Translations under genes and position numbers: made by a program
In this document: positions 27,630-37,903 of the stretch, piece by piece
How positions within the stretch are numbered: the stretch's first letter is position 1
Layout of the letters: each line of letters begins with the position of its first letter
Source: Candidatus Faecousia excrementigallinarum
GTDB lineage: Bacteria; Bacillota; Clostridia; Oscillospirales; Oscillospiraceae
Reading direction: 5' to 3'
DNA length: 42,247 nucleotides
NCBI GenBank assembly: GCA_018713285.1
Contig: DVFK01000009.1
Span: forward strand, 1-42,247
The notes under the pieces: model-generated
Seen by the model: the letters and a program-made list of their open reading frames with translations, nothing else
Database searches by the model: none
What the model was told of the DNA's origin: nothing

Positions 27630-28595
27630 CTATGTTTCCGTGTGGATTATCCCAACCACGGACTCGTAAATTTTCAGGGAGTCGTTCCACTTGGCGTATT
27701 CCGAATCTGTGCGATGGTCGGTAAGTAGGCCGGTTTCCCGGAGGAACTGGGAAAGGAAGTGGGTTACCTTAACTGCACCGGAGTGGTTGACATGGTCCCC
27801 TCTGTCCCGGGTGTCTTTGCTCCAGTCGATTTTCACTTGCTCATTCATAAGGTTCATGTCAATGTATTGGCAGCCGATTTCCTCCGCCAGAACCTTAATT
27901 CCGTTGTGCCGGGCATAATTCCAGTTCACGGAACTGGGGGTGCTCACCAGCACCAGCTCTGCATTGTTTTGCCGGCAAAATTCCTGAATTTCCTTTACAT
28001 ACTGAACATTCTCCGGGGGAATCCGGGCCACAGACTCCGTATGCTGCATATAGTCCCCTCGGGTGCTGGGGTCGATTTCCGCACTGTAGCGATAGCCTTT
28101 GTAGGTATCTGTCCAGGTGAACTTGGTTTTGCCCACAAAATCGTGCCAGCTTAAGTCCTTCCACCGGTCATGATACTGAAAGATAGAGAAATAATTGGCA
28201 AGCTTTGCAATCCGGGCATTGCTTTTTGACACTTCCCGATAAATGGTATTGGTTTCCAGAATGACGATTTTCGGGCTTTGCCGCTCAAAGGCACGGTGTA
28301 GCATGATTGTGGTGTAGCTCAGGGGCTGGCCGCTGGTGCCGCATACATAAGCGGTATATCCGGTTTCTTTCCAGATCTGCATGGGAGTGATGGAGGAATA
28401 GGATTCACTGTCCCCCAGAACCAGAACATCAATGGTGTTTTCCTTTTCCCCCAGAATCCCGTTGGCGGACACCTCTTCCATGCCGAATTCAGACATATTG
28501 TTCTTGGGCGCAAACACAAAGGACAGACCCACCAGAAGTCCTGCCAGGCCCAACAGGAACAGCAAAAAGCAAAGGGCTCTTTTCACAAAAGTCAT
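27630..28595 (-). CDS. SGNH/DltD-like membrane-anchored protein
   Basis: A 321-residue protein with one N-terminal membrane helix (about 8-28) and an extracytoplasmic SGNH-hydrolase-like domain: LVLGDSESYSSI holds the nucleophile Ser block, GTSGQPLSY the second block, VILETNTIYRE the third, and DHVNHSGAVKVTHF the Asp-His pair. This fits DltD and AlgJ/AlgX-type partners of MBOAT enzymes, which help move an acyl group to an extracellular polymer. It is the last gene of the five-gene dlt-like operon, 12 bp after the MBOAT gene. Sequence is far from canonical DltD, so the name dltD is not used. Confidence 0.8.
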   Translation of the reverse strand: MTFVKRALCFLLFLLGLAGLLVGLSFVFAPKNNMSEFGMEEVSANGILGEKENTIDVLVLGDSESYSSITPMQIWKETGYTAYVCGTSGQPLSYTTIMLHRAFERQSPKIVILETNTIYREVSKSNARIAKLANYFSIFQYHDRWKDLSWHDFVGKTKFTWTDTYKGYRYSAEIDPSTRGDYMQHTESVARIPPENVQYVKEIQEFCRQNNAELVLVSTPSSVNWNYARHNGIKVLAEEIGCQYIDMNLMNEQVKIDWSKDTRDRGDHVNHSGAVKVTHFLSQFLRETGLLTDHRTDSEYAKWNDSLKIYESVVGIIHTET

Positions 28596-28607: not shown

Positions 28608-30209
28608 TTAAAAGCCTGCGTAAATGGGATCCACCGGGACATATCCCCGGCCATAGGCTCCAAAAACGATAATCAGCAGCAAAAGGACATAGTAAACCGC
28701 AAAGCGGACGGCCAGGTTCTTCTGGGAAATCCGCTGGCGGATGGGAATGCCTCGCTCCTGCAAAACGCCGATGACAAAAACCAGGAGCAGCACCACGAAA
28801 ATAATCAGGCAGTCGTGTTTATCCACCCCCAGCTCAAAGATGGATTGATCCTGCAAGGTGGCAAAGGAAAACTCCGTGACCATTTTCCGAAACATGGCAA
28901 GCCCTGCTCTTAGCCCCTCGGCCCGGAAGAACAGCTCTCCGATACACACCAAAATAGCGGTGCGGACCATTTGCATACACCGGTAGGGGAAGGATTTTCT
29001 TTGGATATGGAGCTTCTGGGTCAGCCGAACCACAAAGGGTTCTATGAGGCTCCCCCCTAAAATCAGCGCAAAATGGTACATACCGAAGAAGATATAGTTC
29101 CACCCGGCACCGTGCCACAGGCCGTTGGCCAGCCACACGCAAAAAAGGGCAAGAGAGCCAGCCAGAAGGGGGCCAAAGTGGTTTCCCAGCCGCTTTCTTC
29201 CCCGGGAGGTGAGCTTTTTCAAAGGGCCGGACATGGAAAGGGGGTAGAAAATGTAGTCCTTAAACCAGGTTCCCAGGGTGATGTGCCACCGCTTCCAGAA
29301 CTCCGAAATGGTTTTGGAGAAGAAGGGCCGCTGAAAGTTCTCCGGCAGATTCATGCCGAAAAGCTGCCCGCTGCCAAGCACCACATCCATGGTGCCGGAA
29401 AAGTCCATATACAGCTGGACGGTATAGCACACCGCTGCCACCGCCATCACCAAGCCGTCGTAGCTTTCATAGCCTGCAAAGACGGTTTTAATCAGCAAAT
29501 TCAGCCGGTCTGCCACCACCATCTTTTTTACCAGGCCGTAAAGGATTCTCTGGGTGCCCAAAAGGAGGTTTTCCCGGCGGAGTTTCGGCGCTTCCCAGAG
29601 CTGCTGGGCCGTATCGGAATAGCGGCAGATGGGCCCTTCCATAATCTGGGGAAAGAAGCTCATATAAAGAGCCAGGCGGAGAAGGTTATCATCTGCGGGG
29701 ATTTTTCTCCGGTATACATCAAAAATATAGGACACCGCCTGCAAGGTGTAAAAAGAAATGCCGATGGGAAGCACATAGGAAGGGACAGAAACCGTCCGGT
29801 CAATCCCCAGAAGGTTCAAAAGGGTGTTGATATTGCTGGCAAAGAACGGCGTGTACTTAAGCCACAGGAGCATCCCCAGGTGCACCGCCAGGGCGAAGGC
29901 AACCACCAAGCGCTGTTTCTTTGTGTACTGCCGCTTTAGCTCCTTGCGCATTTCCCTGGGAGAGCTCTCCAGGAGGCAGTCCAAGTTCCCCTGAAGCCGC
30001 CCCAGCCAGATCCCAAAATGGTGGAGCGATAGTGTGGAAAACAGCAAACAGGCGATCAGCTTTCCGCTGATCGCCCAGAAAAACACATAGCTCGAAAGCA
30101 AAAGACTCCATCGGCGAAGCTTTTGGGGCAGCAGGGCGTACAAGACCACCGACGCCGGCAAAAGCATCACCAGATATTCTGTTGAAAAATAGGAGGAAAA
30201 GGAGAACAT
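28608..30209 (-). CDS. MBOAT family O-acyltransferase (DltB-like)
   Basis: A 533-residue polytopic membrane enzyme with about ten or more helices. The family's conserved segments are plain: FPQIMEGPICRY, the FWKRWHITLGTWFKDYIFYPL block, and NGLWHGAGWNYIFFGMYH with the catalytic His. DltB passes D-alanine from the DltC carrier across the membrane; the adjacent carrier-protein gene (1-bp gap) suggests the same logic here with a different acyl group. ATG at 30209 follows AGGAGGAAGG, which lies within the end of the carrier gene. The ORF-track start is nine codons earlier and overlaps the carrier gene. Confidence 0.92.
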   Translation of the reverse strand: MFSFSSYFSTEYLVMLLPASVVLYALLPQKLRRWSLLLSSYVFFWAISGKLIACLLFSTLSLHHFGIWLGRLQGNLDCLLESSPREMRKELKRQYTKKQRLVVAFALAVHLGMLLWLKYTPFFASNINTLLNLLGIDRTVSVPSYVLPIGISFYTLQAVSYIFDVYRRKIPADDNLLRLALYMSFFPQIMEGPICRYSDTAQQLWEAPKLRRENLLLGTQRILYGLVKKMVVADRLNLLIKTVFAGYESYDGLVMAVAAVCYTVQLYMDFSGTMDVVLGSGQLFGMNLPENFQRPFFSKTISEFWKRWHITLGTWFKDYIFYPLSMSGPLKKLTSRGRKRLGNHFGPLLAGSLALFCVWLANGLWHGAGWNYIFFGMYHFALILGGSLIEPFVVRLTQKLHIQRKSFPYRCMQMVRTAILVCIGELFFRAEGLRAGLAMFRKMVTEFSFATLQDQSIFELGVDKHDCLIIFVVLLLVFVIGVLQERGIPIRQRISQKNLAVRFAVYYVLLLLIIVFGAYGRGYVPVDPIYAGF

Positions 30210-30210
30210 G

Positions 30211-30441
30211 TTATCCTTCCTCCTGTAGCCGCACAATCATGGCCCAAAGGCTTTCTGCAGAGTTGAAGTTGTCCGGGATGATTTCCACCGTGGGAATGGT
30301 AATGTCGTATTCCTCTTCCAGCTCTGCCACCAGGGAAATAATGGAGAGGGAGTCCAGATAGTGTCCGTCAATCAAATTGGTGCAGGTGGCATAATCCACC
30401 TCCGGCTGGATTTCCTCCAGAATTTCAATCAGTCTTTCCAT
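30211..30441 (-). CDS. acyl carrier protein (DltC-like)
   Basis: A 76-residue four-helix carrier protein with the phosphopantetheine attachment motif HYLDSLSIISL (Ser31) and a strongly acidic surface (LVAELEEEYDITIP). It would carry an aminoacyl thioester between the ligase, the decarboxylase and the MBOAT. The coding sequence overlaps the decarboxylase gene by 17 bp and leaves one base before the MBOAT gene. Confidence 0.92.
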   Translation of the reverse strand: MERLIEILEEIQPEVDYATCTNLIDGHYLDSLSIISLVAELEEEYDITIPTVEIIPDNFNSAESLWAMIVRLQEEG

Positions 30442-31642
30442 AGCAAGCTTCTCCTTTCATGTTTGGAATATTCAGGGTATGGGTCTGAATCCGGGGCCGG
30501 ACGGTCAGGGTTGTGCCGTCCCCTTTCAGGAGCACCACCTCCGGCAGGTCCCGGGTGAGAAACAGAGAAATCCCCTCTGTCATACAATAAGCCCCTGTGT
30601 TCTGGAACACCAGAACGTCTCCTATGTTCAGGTTCCCCAGGGGAAGTTTTTTCACAAGAATGTCGTTGACCGTGCACAGTGAGCCGCAGATGTTCCAGGG
30701 TTCTTCCCCGGAATCCTTAGCCGCCTGCTCCCGGTGCAGAATGTGGATGTAAGGATGCTTCATGGCCATGAACTGCCCATAGTAGGCAAGCTGATGGATG
30801 CCGCCATCCACGATGGCATAATTTTCCCCCAGGTTTCGCTTTCTGTCCACCACCTGGGTCAGGTAGCTGCCGCAGCTGGCGGCAATGCTCCTGCCCAGCT
30901 CCAGGGTAATGCTCCCAGAAAAGTCCAGCTCCCGGAGCATCTGGGAAAAGCCCTCCAGGAAGGCCGATTCTTCAAAGGAGTCCCCCTGAAAGTAGGACAC
31001 GGGAAAACCCGGGCCGAACTCCAGCTCCCGGGCCTCATAGCCCCAGGTGTCCCGGAGCCCTTTCAGAAAGCTGTCCAGGGTGTCCAGCTCCCGTTTCAGC
31101 CGCTTCAGGGATGTTTTCTGGGTGCCGGAAAAGTACTGGATGCCCCGGATGTCCAGGAATGGAGAATCCCTATATTCTCCAATCAGACTCTGAATTTCCG
31201 CCTCGTCCAATCCGAACTGGTTGCCGCTGGTCAGCCGCAGCAATAGGGGAACCCGCTTTTGGGCAGCTGCCGCAGCCTGGTATATTACATCAAACTGGGT
31301 CATGGACTCCACCGTGTAGACACCGGTGGGTTCCCCCTGGGAAATCCACTGCCGGAGAAGGGTGGGTTCCTTGTAAACCCCGGAAACCACAAATTTTTCA
31401 CCGGGCAGACCCAGCTGCCGGCAGATGTGCAGTTCCCCCGGGGAACAGATTTCCAGGCGGTCCACCAGCCCGCTCAGTTCTTCCAGGATAAAGGGGTTGG
31501 CCTTTACCGCATAGCAGAGCTTTACCTTCTCCGGAAGCGCCTGTCTTAAATACTGAACCCGGCGCCGAAGTTCCGCTAGGTCAAACACATACAAAGGGGT
31601 GGTTTTCTCCCGAAGGAGGGCTTTTAACTGTGTTTCCTTCAT
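30425..31642 (-). CDS. fold-III PLP-dependent decarboxylase (DAP/Orn decarboxylase family, BtrK-like context)
   Basis: A 405-residue alanine-racemase-barrel decarboxylase. YAVKANP supplies the PLP lysine (Lys47). IQYFSGTQ takes the place of the HxGSQ motif, LEFGPGFPV the glycine-rich phosphate loop, and ELGRSIAASCGSYLTQV the EPGR block. CGSLCTVNDIL supplies the catalytic Cys on the second subunit, and NTGAYCM is near the end. In diaminopimelate decarboxylase the Cys motif reads CESxD; here it is CTVND, and the residue that grips the distal end of DAP is lost, so LysA activity is unlikely. Fusion into a ligase-carrier operon matches enzymes that decarboxylate a carrier-bound amino acid, such as BtrK of butirosin biosynthesis. 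It overlaps the ligase by 4 bp (ATGA) and the carrier by 17 bp. Confidence 0.85.
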   Translation of the reverse strand: MKETQLKALLREKTTPLYVFDLAELRRRVQYLRQALPEKVKLCYAVKANPFILEELSGLVDRLEICSPGELHICRQLGLPGEKFVVSGVYKEPTLLRQWISQGEPTGVYTVESMTQFDVIYQAAAAAQKRVPLLLRLTSGNQFGLDEAEIQSLIGEYRDSPFLDIRGIQYFSGTQKTSLKRLKRELDTLDSFLKGLRDTWGYEARELEFGPGFPVSYFQGDSFEESAFLEGFSQMLRELDFSGSITLELGRSIAASCGSYLTQVVDRKRNLGENYAIVDGGIHQLAYYGQFMAMKHPYIHILHREQAAKDSGEEPWNICGSLCTVNDILVKKLPLGNLNIGDVLVFQNTGAYCMTEGISLFLTRDLPEVVLLKGDGTTLTVRPRIQTHTLNIPNMKGEACYGKTD

Positions 31643-33150
31643 TTTTGGTTCCTCCCTTCCAGGAGCTTTCTGCGGTCCACTTTGCCGTTTTTGGTCAGGG
31701 GAAATTCCGACAGGTTGTGGAGGGCTCCGGGCACCATGTAGACGGGAAGCAGCTGCCGGAGCTTTTTGTGAAGCTCTTTCTTATCCAGAGTGCCGGTGTA
31801 AAAGCCGTGGAGCTTCTGCCGCTCCTCCTCAAACACGCAGCAGCACCGGTCCACTCCGGAAAGACCGGAGACAGCCCGTTCAATCTCCTCCAGCTCAATC
31901 CGGTGGCCCATGTGCTTGATTTGAAAGTCCTTCCGTCCGCAGAAGTACAGCTCCCCGTCCTCTCCGTATCTGCCCAGATCCCCGGTTCGGTAAATCCGCT
32001 CCGGGTAGCTGCTGTTCAGGGGGTTCTGCCGGAAGGCCTTTTCCGTCTGCTCCGGGGCACGATAATATCCCAGAGCCAGGGAGGTACCCCGCACGCAGAT
32101 TTCTCCCACGCCCCCCGGGGCCGTGACCTGCTGGTCTTCCCCATTCAGGAGGAACACCTGCCGGTTGGCAAAGGGCCGGCCGATGGGAAGGCCCTGCTGA
32201 TAGTCCCGGTTTGGATCCAGGATGTGATAGGTGCAGTTGCAGGTGATTTCCGTGGGGCCGTAAAGATTCACAAACCGGGTTTCCGGCAGGTGCTCCTGCC
32301 AGGTACGCAGGTGCTTTGCCGGCATCACCTCGCCGCTGAAAAGAATCTGCCGCACCGTATCAGGCTGGCGGTAGTCCAGTCCGTGGAAGGTGCTGATGAG
32401 ACACAGGGCAGAAACCGCCCAGATCATGGTGGTGATATGGTGGTCGCAAAGCCAGTCCAGCAGCTCCGTGGGCCGGGAGAACAGGCTCTTGGGGATGATG
32501 GAAAGGGTCGCTCCTGTTTTCACCGCAGAATAAATGTCCTTTACGGACACATCAAAGTCAAAGGGTGCCTGATTGCCGATGATGTCGGTCTCCCCAATTC
32601 CGAAAGTCTCTGTAAAGGTGCCGATGAAGTCCAGCACCGCCCGATGGCTGATGACCACCCCTTTGGGTACCCCCGTGGAACCGGAGGTGAAGATGGCATA
32701 CAAGGGGTCTGAATCAATCATCCGGGAACGGATGAAGCTCAGTTCCTCAGGCTTTATGGCCGTTTCCTTCAGCGCTTCCACCGTCAGAACGGCGGCAGAG
32801 GGGAACAGGGTCAGGGCGGTCTCTTTGTGTTTTTCATCCGTCAGGATGAATTTGGCATTTAAGACGGACTGGATTTGCTCCAGTCTGGCCGCCGGCAGCT
32901 CCGGGTTCAGGGGCACATAAAATCCCCCGGCATAAACCGTCCCCCAGAAGGCTGTCAGCATCCGTACGCCCTTTTCCAGAAAGACCCCCACCGGGTCCCC
33001 CATTGCAATTCTGCCAGCCAAAGAAGACCCCACCCGGCGGCAGGCTGTCTCCAACTCCCGGAAGCTGACACAGGCAGCGCCGTCCTCCGCCGCCACCTTA
33101 TGGGGGAAATTCTCTGCGCTTTTTTCCAGATATTCCAGTACATTTTTCAT
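31639..33150 (-). CDS. amino acid adenylating ligase (DltA-like)
   Basis: A 503-residue ANL-superfamily stand-alone adenylation enzyme. Core motifs: A3 FTSGSTGVPKG (about 160), A4 FDFDVSVKDIY, A5 NLYGPTEI, A7 YRTGDLGRY, A8 GRKDFQIKHMGHRIELEEIE, and A10 PLTKNGKVDRRKL with the catalytic Lys. Organisation and the A4 region resemble DltA, which loads D-alanine on DltC. The substrate here is not known; the decarboxylase next to it argues for a dicarboxylic amino acid such as Glu or Asp. ATG at 33150 (MKNVLEY) after GGGGTGAT is used rather than the earlier ORF-track start. First gene of the five-gene operon. Confidence 0.9.
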   Translation of the reverse strand: MKNVLEYLEKSAENFPHKVAAEDGAACVSFRELETACRRVGSSLAGRIAMGDPVGVFLEKGVRMLTAFWGTVYAGGFYVPLNPELPAARLEQIQSVLNAKFILTDEKHKETALTLFPSAAVLTVEALKETAIKPEELSFIRSRMIDSDPLYAIFTSGSTGVPKGVVISHRAVLDFIGTFTETFGIGETDIIGNQAPFDFDVSVKDIYSAVKTGATLSIIPKSLFSRPTELLDWLCDHHITTMIWAVSALCLISTFHGLDYRQPDTVRQILFSGEVMPAKHLRTWQEHLPETRFVNLYGPTEITCNCTYHILDPNRDYQQGLPIGRPFANRQVFLLNGEDQQVTAPGGVGEICVRGTSLALGYYRAPEQTEKAFRQNPLNSSYPERIYRTGDLGRYGEDGELYFCGRKDFQIKHMGHRIELEEIERAVSGLSGVDRCCCVFEEERQKLHGFYTGTLDKKELHKKLRQLLPVYMVPGALHNLSEFPLTKNGKVDRRKLLEGRNQK

Positions 33151-33202: not shown

Positions 33203-33246
33203 ATTGTACCCGGGGAAGCTTCAGGGAATCTTCAGCAAAGCTTAAT
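33203..33246 (-). promoter_or_regulatory. promoter of the dlt-like operon with three 11-bp direct repeats
   Basis: Reverse strand: ATTAAGCTTTG, CTGAAGATTCC and CTGAAGCTTCC abut one another with an 11-bp period (33214-33246) and end five bases before a TACAAT -10 box (33203-33208). No proper -35 hexamer is present. Such tandem 11-bp repeats over the -35 region are usual for OmpR/PhoB-family activators, and the gene for one lies just upstream. Confidence 0.65.
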
Positions 33247-33250
33247 GTTT

Positions 33251-33286
33251 CTAAAGGAAAATCCGGGGTTCGAAAAGAACCCCGGA
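33251..33286 (-). terminator. terminator of the two-component operon
   Basis: Reverse strand stem TCCGGGGTTC/GAACCCCGGA with loop TTTTC, followed by TTTTCCTTT, 13 bases past the kinase stop codon. Confidence 0.88.
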
Positions 33287-33298
33287 TCAGATGGTGTA

Positions 33299-34900
33299 TT
33301 ATATTTCTCTTTGTAAGGGAATCCAGATGCGAAATTCCGTTTTGTAGGGCTTGTGGGGCGGACGAATGAGGGACATCTCCCCCCGGTGCATCTGCACAAT
33401 TTTCTGGGCAATGGACAGCCCCAGCCCCGTGCCCTTTCCGGTGGTCCGTGCCCGGTTCCCGGTGACGAAGGGCTGAAAGAGGGTCCTGGCGATTTCCTCA
33501 GGAATGCCGGCCCCGTCATCCGCCACGGTCAAAGCCACCCCCTGATTCTCTTGCCCCATGGCAACATACAGGGTCGTCCCCGGGGGATTGTACTTCATGG
33601 CGTTGCTCAGCAGGTTTTCTAAAAGACGGCGCATAAGCTTTCTGTCTATGGGGAGCATCTTCGGCGCCTCCGGAATGTCCACGGAAAGCCCGAAGCCCCC
33701 TTCCGTAAGCTCCATGTACTTTTCCGCAAAAAAGCTCTTTACAAATTCGCAGAAGTCCGTTTCCTCCAACTGCAAAGGATAGTCCGGATGCTCCATCTGG
33801 GTAAGGAGGAACAGGTCGTTGACCATGTCCGTTGCCATCCTGGATTTCTGGTAGATGGCGGCGATGTACTGCCCCTGCTTTTCCGGCGGCACCCTTTGGT
33901 CGGACAGGGCCTTGGCATACCCCTGAATCACCGTCAAGGGGGTTTTCAGGTCATGGGAGATGTCCACTATCAGCTTCTGCTTTTCCCTGTCCAGGGCTTC
34001 CTTTTCCTCCCGGGTCTTTTCCAGCTTGCTTAGCAGGCTCCTGAAATTGCAGACCACCTCATAAAACTCCGACGGCACCGCCCCGGGGGAAATCTCCATG
34101 GCTTTTCCCTTCTCATAGGATTGGATTGTCTGATTGAGGGGAGAAATGCGTCTTTTGATTTTATAATAGAAGAGGACGGTAAACCCGATGACTGCCAGCA
34201 AAACGCAGGGAATGCCGATCATCCAAACCGCATTTGCCCACCGGATAATCTCGTTATACTGCCTCTCGCTGACATTGGTGGACAAAAAGGCCAGAATCCG
34301 CTCCTCGCCATCCGCATTTTCGTAAACGTATTTTTCCAGCAGACTGTTGGTTCTGGAAATGCCGTTGAGCAATTCAAACTCCCTTTGGGTAAGGGAACTG
34401 CGGTCGGGAAACAGGGGCCCGTCCACAATTCTCAGGTCCCCGTCCAGGATGCAGTAGTCCAGAATCTTCGGCACCAGATCCTCCCCTGTCATATCATAGC
34501 TGTTCAGGTATACCGTATACTGAACAGAGCCATCTGCCAGGGTGTCCTGAAACACATTGAAAAAGCTTCCGGTATGATAATCCCCCAGCATATCCAGGTC
34601 TTCAAAGAAAACCAATTCCCGGATTGTCTGGTTGCTGGCATATTGGATAATGCCGTTTTCATCAAAGATAATCATGGCGGAGTTTTTGGAATTGCCGACA
34701 GGAAGACGGGAATAGTCCTCCTGAATCAGTTGGTCTTCGTAGGAGAGCAAATCCTCCATGGTAAAGACGGATTCCCCAATCCGCTGGTTCGCCAGATGCT
34801 GAAAGCCGGAATAAATCAGAACAATAAGCCCTGCAAACAGGGCAAAATACACGGCGCAGGAGAAAATAAGGCTTCTTTGTCTCCGGTTAATTCGCTTCAA
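33299..34900 (-). CDS. sensor histidine kinase
   Basis: A 533-residue membrane kinase. Helices at about 11-31 and 223-245 bound an extracytoplasmic sensor domain of about 190 residues with no family I can name. A HAMP-like linker (about 247-300) leads to the HisKA domain with DISHDLKTPLT (His316) and the ATP-binding domain with N-box NLLSNAMKYN, G1 DDGAGIPEE and G2 GKGTGLGLSI. The large sensor domain separates it from the short BceS type. It overlaps the response regulator by 14 bp. Its position directly upstream of the dlt-like operon suggests it senses envelope stress or cationic peptides; that is inference. Confidence 0.93.
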   Translation of the reverse strand: MKRINRRQRSLIFSCAVYFALFAGLIVLIYSGFQHLANQRIGESVFTMEDLLSYEDQLIQEDYSRLPVGNSKNSAMIIFDENGIIQYASNQTIRELVFFEDLDMLGDYHTGSFFNVFQDTLADGSVQYTVYLNSYDMTGEDLVPKILDYCILDGDLRIVDGPLFPDRSSLTQREFELLNGISRTNSLLEKYVYENADGEERILAFLSTNVSERQYNEIIRWANAVWMIGIPCVLLAVIGFTVLFYYKIKRRISPLNQTIQSYEKGKAMEISPGAVPSEFYEVVCNFRSLLSKLEKTREEKEALDREKQKLIVDISHDLKTPLTVIQGYAKALSDQRVPPEKQGQYIAAIYQKSRMATDMVNDLFLLTQMEHPDYPLQLEETDFCEFVKSFFAEKYMELTEGGFGLSVDIPEAPKMLPIDRKLMRRLLENLLSNAMKYNPPGTTLYVAMGQENQGVALTVADDGAGIPEEIARTLFQPFVTGNRARTTGKGTGLGLSIAQKIVQMHRGEMSLIRPPHKPYKTEFRIWIPLQREI

Positions 34901-35600
34901 TTTTATACCCCAATCCTCTCACGGTTTTGATGTATCTGGGATTCGACGGATCGTCCTCAATTTTGGAACGGATGTTGGAAATATGCACCATCATGGTATT
35001 ATCGTCACTCTCATAAAACTCTCCCCCGATACAGGCGTAGAGCTGGGCCTTGGTATACACCCGGCCGGGAGCGCTCATGAGTTTTACCACGATTTTCATT
35101 TCTGCCGGGGTCAGGGGTACAATCCGCCCCCGTTTGCGGAGGATGAATTTCAGCAAATCCAGCTCCAATTCCCCTACCACCAGGGAGTGTTCCTCCCCCG
35201 GGCTTCTGTCCCCGGGGTCGCTTGCCCCCAGGTCGTAGTACCGGCGCAAAGCAGATTTCACATAGGCCACCACTTCCAGGGGATTGAAGGGCTTGGTGAG
35301 ATAGGCGTCTGCCCCCAGGTTAAGGCCCAGAATCCGGTCTGTATCCAGCTCCTTGGCAGAGAGCATAATCACCGGAAAATTATGGCTTTCCCGGATTCGC
35401 TTCAGCACATCATACCCGTTCATCTCCGGCATCATAATGTCCAGGATTGCCAGGTCGATTTTGGTGGATGCAATCCGCTCCAGGGCCGCAAGTCCGTTTT
35501 CTGCAGAAAAGACCGTATACCCTTCCCCGGTCAGATATAGGGACAGCAGCTCCACAATGTCTGCATCATCCTCGGCAATCAGAATATTTTTATTCGGCAT
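34887..35600 (-). CDS. OmpR/PhoB-family response regulator
   Basis: A 237-residue regulator. The receiver domain (1-120) has EDD (10-12), phosphorylation site Asp54 (LAILDIMMPEMNG), the Thr/Ser (MLSAKE) and Lys (LTKPF) switch residues. The C-terminal winged helix (about 140-235) has PLTPAEMKIVVKLMSAPGRVYTKAQL and VHISNIRSKIEDDPSNPRYIKTVRGLGYKI. It pairs with the overlapping kinase. Three 11-bp repeats ahead of the dlt-like operon are the most likely target in this window. Confidence 0.95.
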   Translation of the reverse strand: MPNKNILIAEDDADIVELLSLYLTGEGYTVFSAENGLAALERIASTKIDLAILDIMMPEMNGYDVLKRIRESHNFPVIMLSAKELDTDRILGLNLGADAYLTKPFNPLEVVAYVKSALRRYYDLGASDPGDRSPGEEHSLVVGELELDLLKFILRKRGRIVPLTPAEMKIVVKLMSAPGRVYTKAQLYACIGGEFYESDDNTMMVHISNIRSKIEDDPSNPRYIKTVRGLGYKIEAN

Positions 35601-35663: not shown

Positions 35664-35693
35664 ATTTTAGTACGAAAGCAGCCAAAAAGTCAA
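35664..35693 (-). promoter_or_regulatory. promoter of the two-component operon
   Basis: Reverse strand: TTGACT, 18 nt, TAAAAT, about 65 bases before the response regulator start. The remaining sequence of this 234-bp gap holds only the next terminator. Confidence 0.65.
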
Positions 35694-35834: not shown

Positions 35835-36179
35835 TCATGCCTGATTCTTTTTCGCTGTGTTGATGGAAGCGATGAGCAGTCGTTTGACCTCAACACATTG
35901 TTTCAAAATGGCGGGATCATCATAGTAGCCGCTTTCCAGGAGCAGCTCCAGCCAATATTCGCTTTCCGAACTTTCTTTCAATGCAATTTGTAATTTTGCA
36001 ATAAAATCGGCCTTTCCGTGGGCATACATAGCTTCCCGGATATTGGCACCGATGCTGGTGCCGGAGCGGATCAACTGGTTGGTCAGTACCGCTTCCCGCT
36101 TGGAAGCCTTGATTTCATTGCAAACTTTGATGATTTCCAACGCAAATGCTTTGGATTTATCCAGAAGCGGACTGGGCAT
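35835..36179 (-). CDS. four-helix bundle protein (S23/IVS-type)
   Basis: A 114-residue all-helical protein of the family first seen as the ORF in 23S rRNA intervening sequences. Hallmarks are LTNQLIRSGTSIGANIREA in the first half and KLQIALKESSESEYWLELLLESGY in the second. Stand-alone copies are common in bacterial genomes and are often near structured repeats or mobile DNA; the function is unknown. Here it borders the hairpin array at 36.3-36.5 kb. It ends in its own terminator. Confidence 0.88.
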   Translation of the reverse strand: MPSPLLDKSKAFALEIIKVCNEIKASKREAVLTNQLIRSGTSIGANIREAMYAHGKADFIAKLQIALKESSESEYWLELLLESGYYDDPAILKQCVEVKRLLIASINTAKKNQA

Positions 36180-36594: not shown

Positions 36595-37437
36595 TTACTC
36601 CAGGGGAGATAGTTCTGCACTATGAGCCTCCAGAGCTTCGATCCGGTGATCCTGCGTCAGAATCTCCATCTGGCTGATGGCGATGGCATTGAGCTTTGCC
36701 AGACGCTCGGCTTGAGACATTCCTTCGCTGATAAATACTGCATTCAGGTTTTCCAGATTGGACAGGCAGACCAGCTGAGAGACATTGGCGTAGTCGCGGA
36801 TGTTTCCTTTGAGATCCGGATGGCTGTCCCGCCACTGCTTTGCAGTCATACCGAAGAGGGCCATGTTCAGGACATCGGCTTCACTGGCATACACTATGGA
36901 AACCTGCTTTGGGGAAAGCTCTGGCGGAATCAGATTCTCCTTGATGGCATCCGTATGGATGCGGTAGTTGATCTTGGCCAGATTTCGCTTGATGTCCCAG
37001 CCAAGTTGTTTCATCTCCTCGGTCTTGAGCCGCTCAAATTCCTTGACCAGATACAGCTTGAATTCAACAGAAATCCAGGAGGCAAACTCAAAGGCGATCT
37101 CTTTGTGTGCATAAGTGCCACCGTATCGACCAGCTTTTGAGACGATACCGATAGCGCCGGTTGCCTCCACCCACTTTTGGGGAGTCATCACAAAACTGTT
37201 CAGACCGGCCTGACTCCTAAACGCATCGAATTCGACACGGTTAAATTCCGGGTTGTAAAGGGACTCCCAGACACCAAGAAACTCAATCGTATTCCGGTTG
37301 CGAAGCCAGTTTTGAATGATGTATCGGGGGTTGTCACTGTCCTTAAGCTTGGCAATGTCCGTCAAGCTGATAAAGTCATCCCGGCTGGAATTCCATTGTA
37401 CACTGATCTCGGTTCCTCTGACAACCAGTTTTTCCAC
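36595..37437 (-). CDS. KilA-N domain protein
   Basis: A 280-residue phage/mobile-element type DNA-binding protein. The N-terminal KilA-N domain (about 15-115) shows FISLTDIAKLKDSDNPRYIIQNWLRNRNTIEFLGVWE and the ending YGGTYAHKEIAFEFASWISVEFKLYLVKEF. The C-terminal half, with ELSPKQVSIVYASEADVLNMALFGMTAKQWR, is of the ORF6-like type found with KilA-N in Firmicutes elements. The exact function is unknown. It is first in a group of small accessory genes downstream of the recombinases and lies four bases after the phosphatase gene. Confidence 0.85.
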   Translation of the reverse strand: MEKLVVRGTEISVQWNSSRDDFISLTDIAKLKDSDNPRYIIQNWLRNRNTIEFLGVWESLYNPEFNRVEFDAFRSQAGLNSFVMTPQKWVEATGAIGIVSKAGRYGGTYAHKEIAFEFASWISVEFKLYLVKEFERLKTEEMKQLGWDIKRNLAKINYRIHTDAIKENLIPPELSPKQVSIVYASEADVLNMALFGMTAKQWRDSHPDLKGNIRDYANVSQLVCLSNLENLNAVFISEGMSQAERLAKLNAIAISQMEILTQDHRIEALEAHSAELSPLE

Positions 37438-37441
37438 GCAT

Positions 37442-37903
37442 TTACACCTCCTTGTTGATTATTTTTTGAAGAAGTCCCTGGCAGCCTTCCTCTACATCCC
37501 GCCAGGTCGTATCGAAATCGCCGGTGTACCACGGATCGGCTACCTCGCCGGGACGGTTGGTAAAGTCCATTAGCAGATGCATCTTGTCGGCAAAATCGCC
37601 GCCGCAGATGCGGTACATACTTCGCATGTTGGCATGATCCATGCCAATCAGGAGGTCGTATTTCTCGTAGTCGCTGTTCAGCAGTTGGCGGGCTCTCTTG
37701 CCAGAGCAATCGATGCCATGCTCGGACAGCTTGCGGCGAGCCGGCGGATACACCGGATTGCCGATCTCCTCTGTGCTGGTGGCTGCCGACTCGATCAGAA
37801 TGCTCTGCTCCAGACCGGCCTTCTTCACCAGATCCTTCATAATGAACTCGGCCATCGGGCTTCTGCAAATGTTGCCGTGGCAGAGGAAAAGTATCTTGAT
37901 CAT
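37442..37903 (-). CDS. low-molecular-weight protein-tyrosine phosphatase
   Basis: A 153-residue LMW-PTP. The P-loop LFLCHGNICRSP (Cys8, Arg14, Ser15) starts at the N-terminus, and the general-acid Asp lies in VADPWYTGDF. Such enzymes remove phosphate from tyrosine or arginine of proteins. The ATG at 37903 is 10 bases after GGAG; the ORF-track start 42 codons earlier runs through the DUF1016 fragment in another frame. It lies between KilA-N and the DUF1016 fragment in the mobile-type region. Confidence 0.9.
   Translation of the reverse strand: MIKILFLCHGNICRSPMAEFIMKDLVKKAGLEQSILIESAATSTEEIGNPVYPPARRKLSEHGIDCSGKRARQLLNSDYEKYDLLIGMDHANMRSMYRICGGDFADKMHLLMDFTNRPGEVADPWYTGDFDTTWRDVEEGCQGLLQKIINKEV

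Follow-up and report, generated by a model that had tools for sequence, protein, structure and literature searches.

The DNA analysed here, referred to as the window, is a 42,247-nt stretch of contig DVFK01000009.1 from Candidatus Faecousia excrementigallinarum, and the region of interest is read on its minus strand. A response regulator gene and a sensor histidine kinase gene form one unit behind their own promoter; they are followed by a terminator, an array of short tandem repeats and a five-gene dlt-like operon, whose leader of about 50 bp carries a likely ribosome site, GGGGTGAT, before the ATG at 33150 (Table 1).

Table 1. Features of the two-component and dlt-like region, in the order in which they are read
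Feature	Position	Strand	Remarks
Predicted sigma-70-type promoter of two-component genes	35664..35693	-	TTGACT-18-TAAAAT
OmpR/PhoB-family response regulator	34887..35600	-	Receiver and winged helix; recognition helix NTMMVHISNIRSKIEDD
Sensor histidine kinase	33299..34900	-	Two membrane helices around an extracytoplasmic alpha/beta domain; HisKA, HATPase_c
Intrinsic terminator	33260..33288	-	Strong; 12-bp stem, T-rich tail; separates kinase gene from operon
Half-site 4 (distal), TTTAG	33251..33255	-	10 bp upstream of half-site 3; kept in most relatives
Half-site 3, TTAAG	33241..33245	-	Core of the weak third copy
Half-site 2, TGAAG	33230..33234	-	Core of CTGAAGATTCC
Half-site 1 (proximal), TGAAG	33219..33223	-	Core of CTGAAGCTTCC; 10 bp before the -10 box, overlaps the -35 position
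Operon promoter -10 box, TACAAT	33203..33208	-	No -35 hexamer
DltA-like amino acid adenylating enzyme	31639..33150	-	First operon gene; binding-pocket residues (placed by eye) invariant among relatives
Fold-III PLP decarboxylase	30425..31642	-	Best solved relative BtrK (L-glutamyl-ACP decarboxylase)
Acyl carrier protein, DltC-like	30211..30441	-	Phosphopantetheine site DS
MBOAT-family membrane acyltransferase, DltB-like	28608..30209	-	
Membrane-anchored SGNH-fold protein, DltD-like	27630..28595	-	GDSE and DH motifs invariant

Genes of the two-component system and of the operon

Both domains of the regulator score above cut-off (PF00072, 100.9 bits; PF00486, 84.4 bits), and with the kinase it lies directly upstream of the operon, as a sequence-only reading of this DNA had stated. 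The outer domain of the kinase has weak double-Cache/PAS similarity and a fold match to McpB (E 9.5e-6) with a low TM-score, a double-Cache-type match too poor to name the signal of the kinase; the envelope stress that the same reading had proposed as the signal finds no support in so weakly Cache-like a domain. Autoregulation through the motif found at the operon was considered and dropped, as the region upstream of the window's regulator gene is without TKAAG half-sites. Directly upstream of the two-component genes is a gene for a 23S rRNA intervening-sequence-type four-helix-bundle protein (35835-36179, minus strand) with its own terminator-like site, and at 36595-37903 (minus strand) a KilA-N domain protein gene adjoins a low-molecular-weight phosphotyrosine phosphatase gene.

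The order of the operon genes (adenylating enzyme, PLP decarboxylase, carrier protein, MBOAT, SGNH protein) recurs in many gut Clostridia. The models for DltA, DltB and DltC give 280.7, 155.6 and 31.6 bits against curated cut-offs of 559.85, 375 and 68, about half in each case, and TIGR01734 and TIGR04091, the models for true DltA and DltB, had no match above cut-off in eight genomes; two control genomes pass. The label "dlt-like" given by the sequence-only reading is fair; with scores at about half the cut-offs and an extra decarboxylase it does not extend to dlt proper, and the operon is, judged from its sequence, a decarboxylase-containing variant and not a true dlt operon. A second DltA-like gene with a DltB-like gene nearby occurs elsewhere in one related genome (G398:C13:21964-23454; operon locus L094).

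The decarboxylase has BtrK as its best PDB match (E 1.5e-27), with diaminopimelate decarboxylases scoring almost equally, and its nearest NCBIfam model is the exosortase-associated decarboxylase. Relatives were found in 54 genome contigs, of which most come from gut and rumen Clostridia, and in most cases the same adenylating-enzyme and carrier genes again lie next to them. As the PLP lysine K47 and active-site C323 are invariant in 12 relatives, with the GSLCT-ND motif kept, and the pocket residues of the adenylating enzyme do not vary either, one substrate is likely used throughout these relatives. For the DltD-like protein, Pfam and PDB sequence searches returned nothing useful; its structure model (pLDDT 87) gave Foldseek matches that include Enterococcus faecium DltD (6pfx, E 7.5e-6), with TesA-type SGNH enzymes ranking above it.

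The candidate operator array in the genome and across loci

On the minus strand the repeats read ATTAAGCTTTG CTGAAGATTCC CTGAAGCTTCC CCGGG TACAAT, placing an array TTAAG-N6-TGAAG-N6-TGAAG-N10-TACAAT at 33245-33203, in the stretch that runs from the terminator of the regulator/kinase unit to the operon's ATG. The earlier description of this promoter proved accurate in most respects: two copies are perfect and a third is weaker (ATTAAG), exactly 5 bp separate the last repeat from TACAAT, and TTGACA is matched at only 0-2 of 6 bases with spacers of 16-18. What it overlooked is a fourth half-site, TTTAG. The full stretch of the candidate operator (33255-33203, minus strand, TTTAGAAACATTAAGCTTTGCTGAAGATTCCCTGAAGCTTCCCCGGGTACAAT) comes directly after the terminator. 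Half-sites of 5 bp describe the arrangement better, and from start to start it reads TTTAG(10)TTAAG(11)TGAAG(11)TGAAG(15)TACAAT.

The window array scores 20 of 21. When the intergenic region was dinucleotide-shuffled 500 times, the shuffled versions averaged 10.6 and reached 14 at most; the comparison is partly circular in that the scoring consensus resembles the window site. Three TKMAG half-sites at an 11-bp period occur once in the 1.98 Mb genome (88% complete), and the genome-wide search for the full composite, including the -10 box and allowing up to 3 mismatches, likewise found it at the operon only, with none for a reversed-pattern control; these counts apply to an assembly with 12% of the genome missing and to sites strong enough for the search to retain. 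The two-half-site motif was rejected as a signal by itself: with 2 mismatches allowed it is common in the window (3 found, 3.9 expected), so that it is the triple together with the -10 box that carries the signal. Other tandem TKAAG sites of the genome lie inside open frames (two), between a chromate-transporter gene and a radical-SAM gene, and behind a second two-component pair before an HtrA-like gene, and none of them has the full composite. A single site in the genome suggests a circuit dedicated to one operon; this part of the earlier proposal of a dedicated envelope-stress circuit is retained, within the 88% of the genome available, and the stress part is not.

Orthologous regulator/kinase pairs lie beside the operon at 11 distinct loci (the window, L037 with L105, L094, L132, L133, L161, L139, L142, L147, L154 and L167). 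The pair is colinear and upstream in nine, divergent in L154 and downstream in L167; colinearity in one genome (G076) was deduced from two contigs, one ending at the last codons of the kinase and the other starting inside the terminator. All 11 carry the 11/11/15-bp array, with scores of 15-21 of 21, the weaker ones being L142 (15) and L147 (16). Among 32 related operons without the system none reaches 16 and one reaches 15. With the window excluded, none of the 441 spacing combinations scores higher than 11/11/15 (18.1 against a grid mean of 12.3, sd 1.05), which lies 5.5 standard deviations over the mean. On average the columns of the half-sites and -10 box are 88% identical, those of the spacers 57% and those downstream 46%; in the distal half-site, columns -10, -5, -4 and -3 are invariant across the 11 loci. 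At most 3 of 6 bases of a -35 element are matched in the eleven linked promoters. One recognition helix, NTMMVHISNIRxKIEDD with small variations, is common to the linked regulators; the other alignable OmpR-type regulators of the genome have a different one.

This comparison tries the motif of the sequence-only reading on sequences that its reader had never seen. The motif itself comes from that reading and the window, and the linked/unlinked scoring was set after the motif had been seen in some of the loci. The eleven loci are not independent of one another: six changes of linkage are needed on the tree of the adenylating enzyme, with only one independent contrast on strongly supported branches, and the correlation between array and linkage may thus owe something to shared descent. 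The nearest named relative, Candidatus Faecousia excrementipullorum (L131), has operon proteins 99-100% identical to those of the window. In this relative (contig region L093 7030-7240) the kinase gene and the terminator are set apart by an insertion of about 190 bp that contains several inverted repeats; the terminator and operator are unchanged.

A different, likewise conserved layout upstream of the adenylating-enzyme gene, TTAAG(10)TTAAx(23)TTAAR or TAAAG(15) to the -10 box, was recognised by eye in L141, L146, L038, L039, L040 and L096, often with the palindrome TTAAGAATTCTTAA, at operons beside another two-component system or none; its form TTAAG(10)TTAAx(23)TAAAG(15) recurs, also by eye, in four genomes (G129, G066, G146 and G203). 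In L141 and L146 the system beside the operon is a different one, with the regulator helix NNVMVHIRNIRRKL. Judged by eye and without statistics, the operator seems to change together with the regulator, which points to the adjacent regulator as the reader of the site. The contig of L146 (594,904 bases) is labelled Streptococcus suis SSHP-D, possibly reflecting horizontal transfer or a mislabelled assembly.

Proposed circuit, its alternatives and the possible role of the operon

Taken together, sequence, spacing, conservation, linkage and uniqueness mark the array as a conserved site, and from these comparisons we infer binding, its dependence on phosphorylation, and activation. The reading we prefer, to which we give a probability of roughly 0.86, is that the repeats are the operator through which the adjacent OmpR-family regulator switches on the five-gene operon. 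The kinase would phosphorylate the regulator, which would then bind as head-to-tail dimers on the four half-sites TTTAG-N5-TTAAG-N6-TGAAG-N6-TGAAG; the 11-bp period sets half-sites on one helix face. The proximal dimer would cover about -38 to -23, where a -35 box is lacking, and stand in for that element through contact with RNA polymerase, thereby turning the operon on; a second dimer may sit on the conserved distal pair. As the terminator behind the kinase gene would insulate the operon, its expression would depend on its own promoter. Class II activation is what the CiaR box of streptococci, with the same two distances, points to by analogy. The direct activation proposed by the sequence-only reading thus holds best for the link to the adjacent system, for which the linked and unlinked loci, the spacing grid, the shared helix and the unique site all argue; activation as such fits the absent -35 element and the CiaR-type geometry.

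The array could instead be read by another regulator of the OmpR/CiaR type, for example the HtrA-linked one, with the adjacent system controlling something else. The genome holds 15 matches to the OmpR-type DNA-binding domain, TTAAG-N6-TTAAG also stands behind another regulator/kinase pair before the HtrA-like protease gene, and in G129 the best homologue of the regulator lies away from the operon. The array nevertheless tracks the adjacent system (11/11 linked loci at 15 or above, 0/32 others at 16 or above), L141 and L146 have a different layout beside a different system, and the proximal half-sites are mostly TGAAG or TAAAG, not TTAAG, leaving this an unlikely explanation. Rather less probable still is that the adjacent regulator binds the repeats and represses, by keeping RNA polymerase off the region from -35 to -10. 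The position of the array alone may be compatible with this, the proximal half-site being merely 10 bp from the -10 box; yet eleven promoters without a -35 element would offer little basal activity to repress, and CiaR-activated promoters have the same spacing, which together favour activation. That the repeats reflect chance or the shared ancestry of a short intergenic region, with no function, can be given hardly any weight: two-half-site matches are common once mismatches are allowed and some loci are closely related, but the flanks fall to 46% column identity where the half-sites stay at 88%, the array is kept where the system is divergent (L154) or downstream (L167), and the composite site is unique in the genome.

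Returning to the preferred reading, in which the adjacent regulator activates the operon, the operon probably modifies an envelope polymer that is exported, attaching to it an activated group derived from an amino acid. A more specific proposal, which we hold only tentatively and rate below even odds, is an undescribed envelope modification of gut Clostridia in which an amino acid is activated, loaded, decarboxylated on the carrier by a BtrK-like enzyme and moved by the MBOAT/SGNH pair to the exported polymer, with a two-component system serving this operon alone; the putative product could be, for example, a GABA- or beta-alanine-like amine. An objection to carrier-bound decarboxylation is that an alpha-carboxyl used for loading cannot be lost, so that the amino acid would need to be loaded through a side-chain carboxyl, or a free amine made, or decarboxylation would have to precede loading.

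The array is a concrete candidate operator for an uncharacterised two-component system of gut Oscillospiraceae and their relatives, and as only one target is predicted, a single reporter could serve to read out the signal of the system. The dlt-like operon, with its carrier-type decarboxylase, may put a group other than D-alanine on the envelope, which, if true, would bear on cationic-peptide resistance in gut commensals.

Comparison with known systems

Among the titles and abstracts listed in literature searches, none described a dlt-like operon that includes a decarboxylase, or a clostridial dlt operon with an adjacent two-component system; as far as these searches reached, the specific circuit and its operon are undescribed. 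The regulatory principle is ordinary and its layout already known, for instance from streptococcal CiaR; more unusual is the operon, with its additional decarboxylase. Tandem half-sites with an 11-bp period across the -35 position are used by PhoB/OmpR-type regulators in class II activation at promoters lacking a -35 element. The window array has this arrangement, with the contact to RNA polymerase putative. The regulator resembles VanR, its best NCBIfam family (226.9 bits, short of the cut-off of 350), and the operon genes examined include no van genes.

Close in layout is CiaRH, an OmpR-family system with a hexamer-N5-hexamer site of 11-bp period at an equal distance from the -10 box. The CiaR box of streptococci is NTTAAG-N5-TTTAAG with ten bases to the -10 box, and is backed by binding, mutational and expression data (PMC3091779, PMC9603419). 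The window reads ATTAAG-N5-CTGAAG-N5-CTGAAG, so that the geometry is identical but the letters depart from the CiaR consensus: the proximal half-sites of the linked loci are mostly TGAAG or TAAAG, whereas in CiaR boxes the third T never varies, and there are four half-sites rather than two. The recognition helices also differ (TMMVHISNIRSKI in the window, VVEVYVSKVRKKL in CiaR), as do the type of target and the size of the regulon, with one genome site here against 15 promoters for CiaR. The second two-component pair of the genome to which the window belongs (L129, contig C53, 965-3736), with a terminator-like stretch, TTAAG tandems and the HtrA-like protease gene, resembles the streptococcal CiaRH-HtrA arrangement, and its regulator frame looks broken or incomplete.

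Like dltABCD, the operon combines an adenylating enzyme, a carrier protein, an MBOAT transferase and an SGNH/DltD-fold protein, but in contrast to that system, which performs D-alanylation of teichoic acids, it has the extra decarboxylase and a different gene order. In butirosin biosynthesis, BtrK decarboxylates glutamate bound to the carrier BtrI to GABA (PMC7857480), and loading of this glutamate through its side-chain carboxyl has been proposed. Among solved proteins BtrK stands nearest to the decarboxylase, whose carrier gene is adjacent here and in most relatives; unlike BtrK/BtrI, the decarboxylase/carrier pair of the window sits in an MBOAT-type operon.
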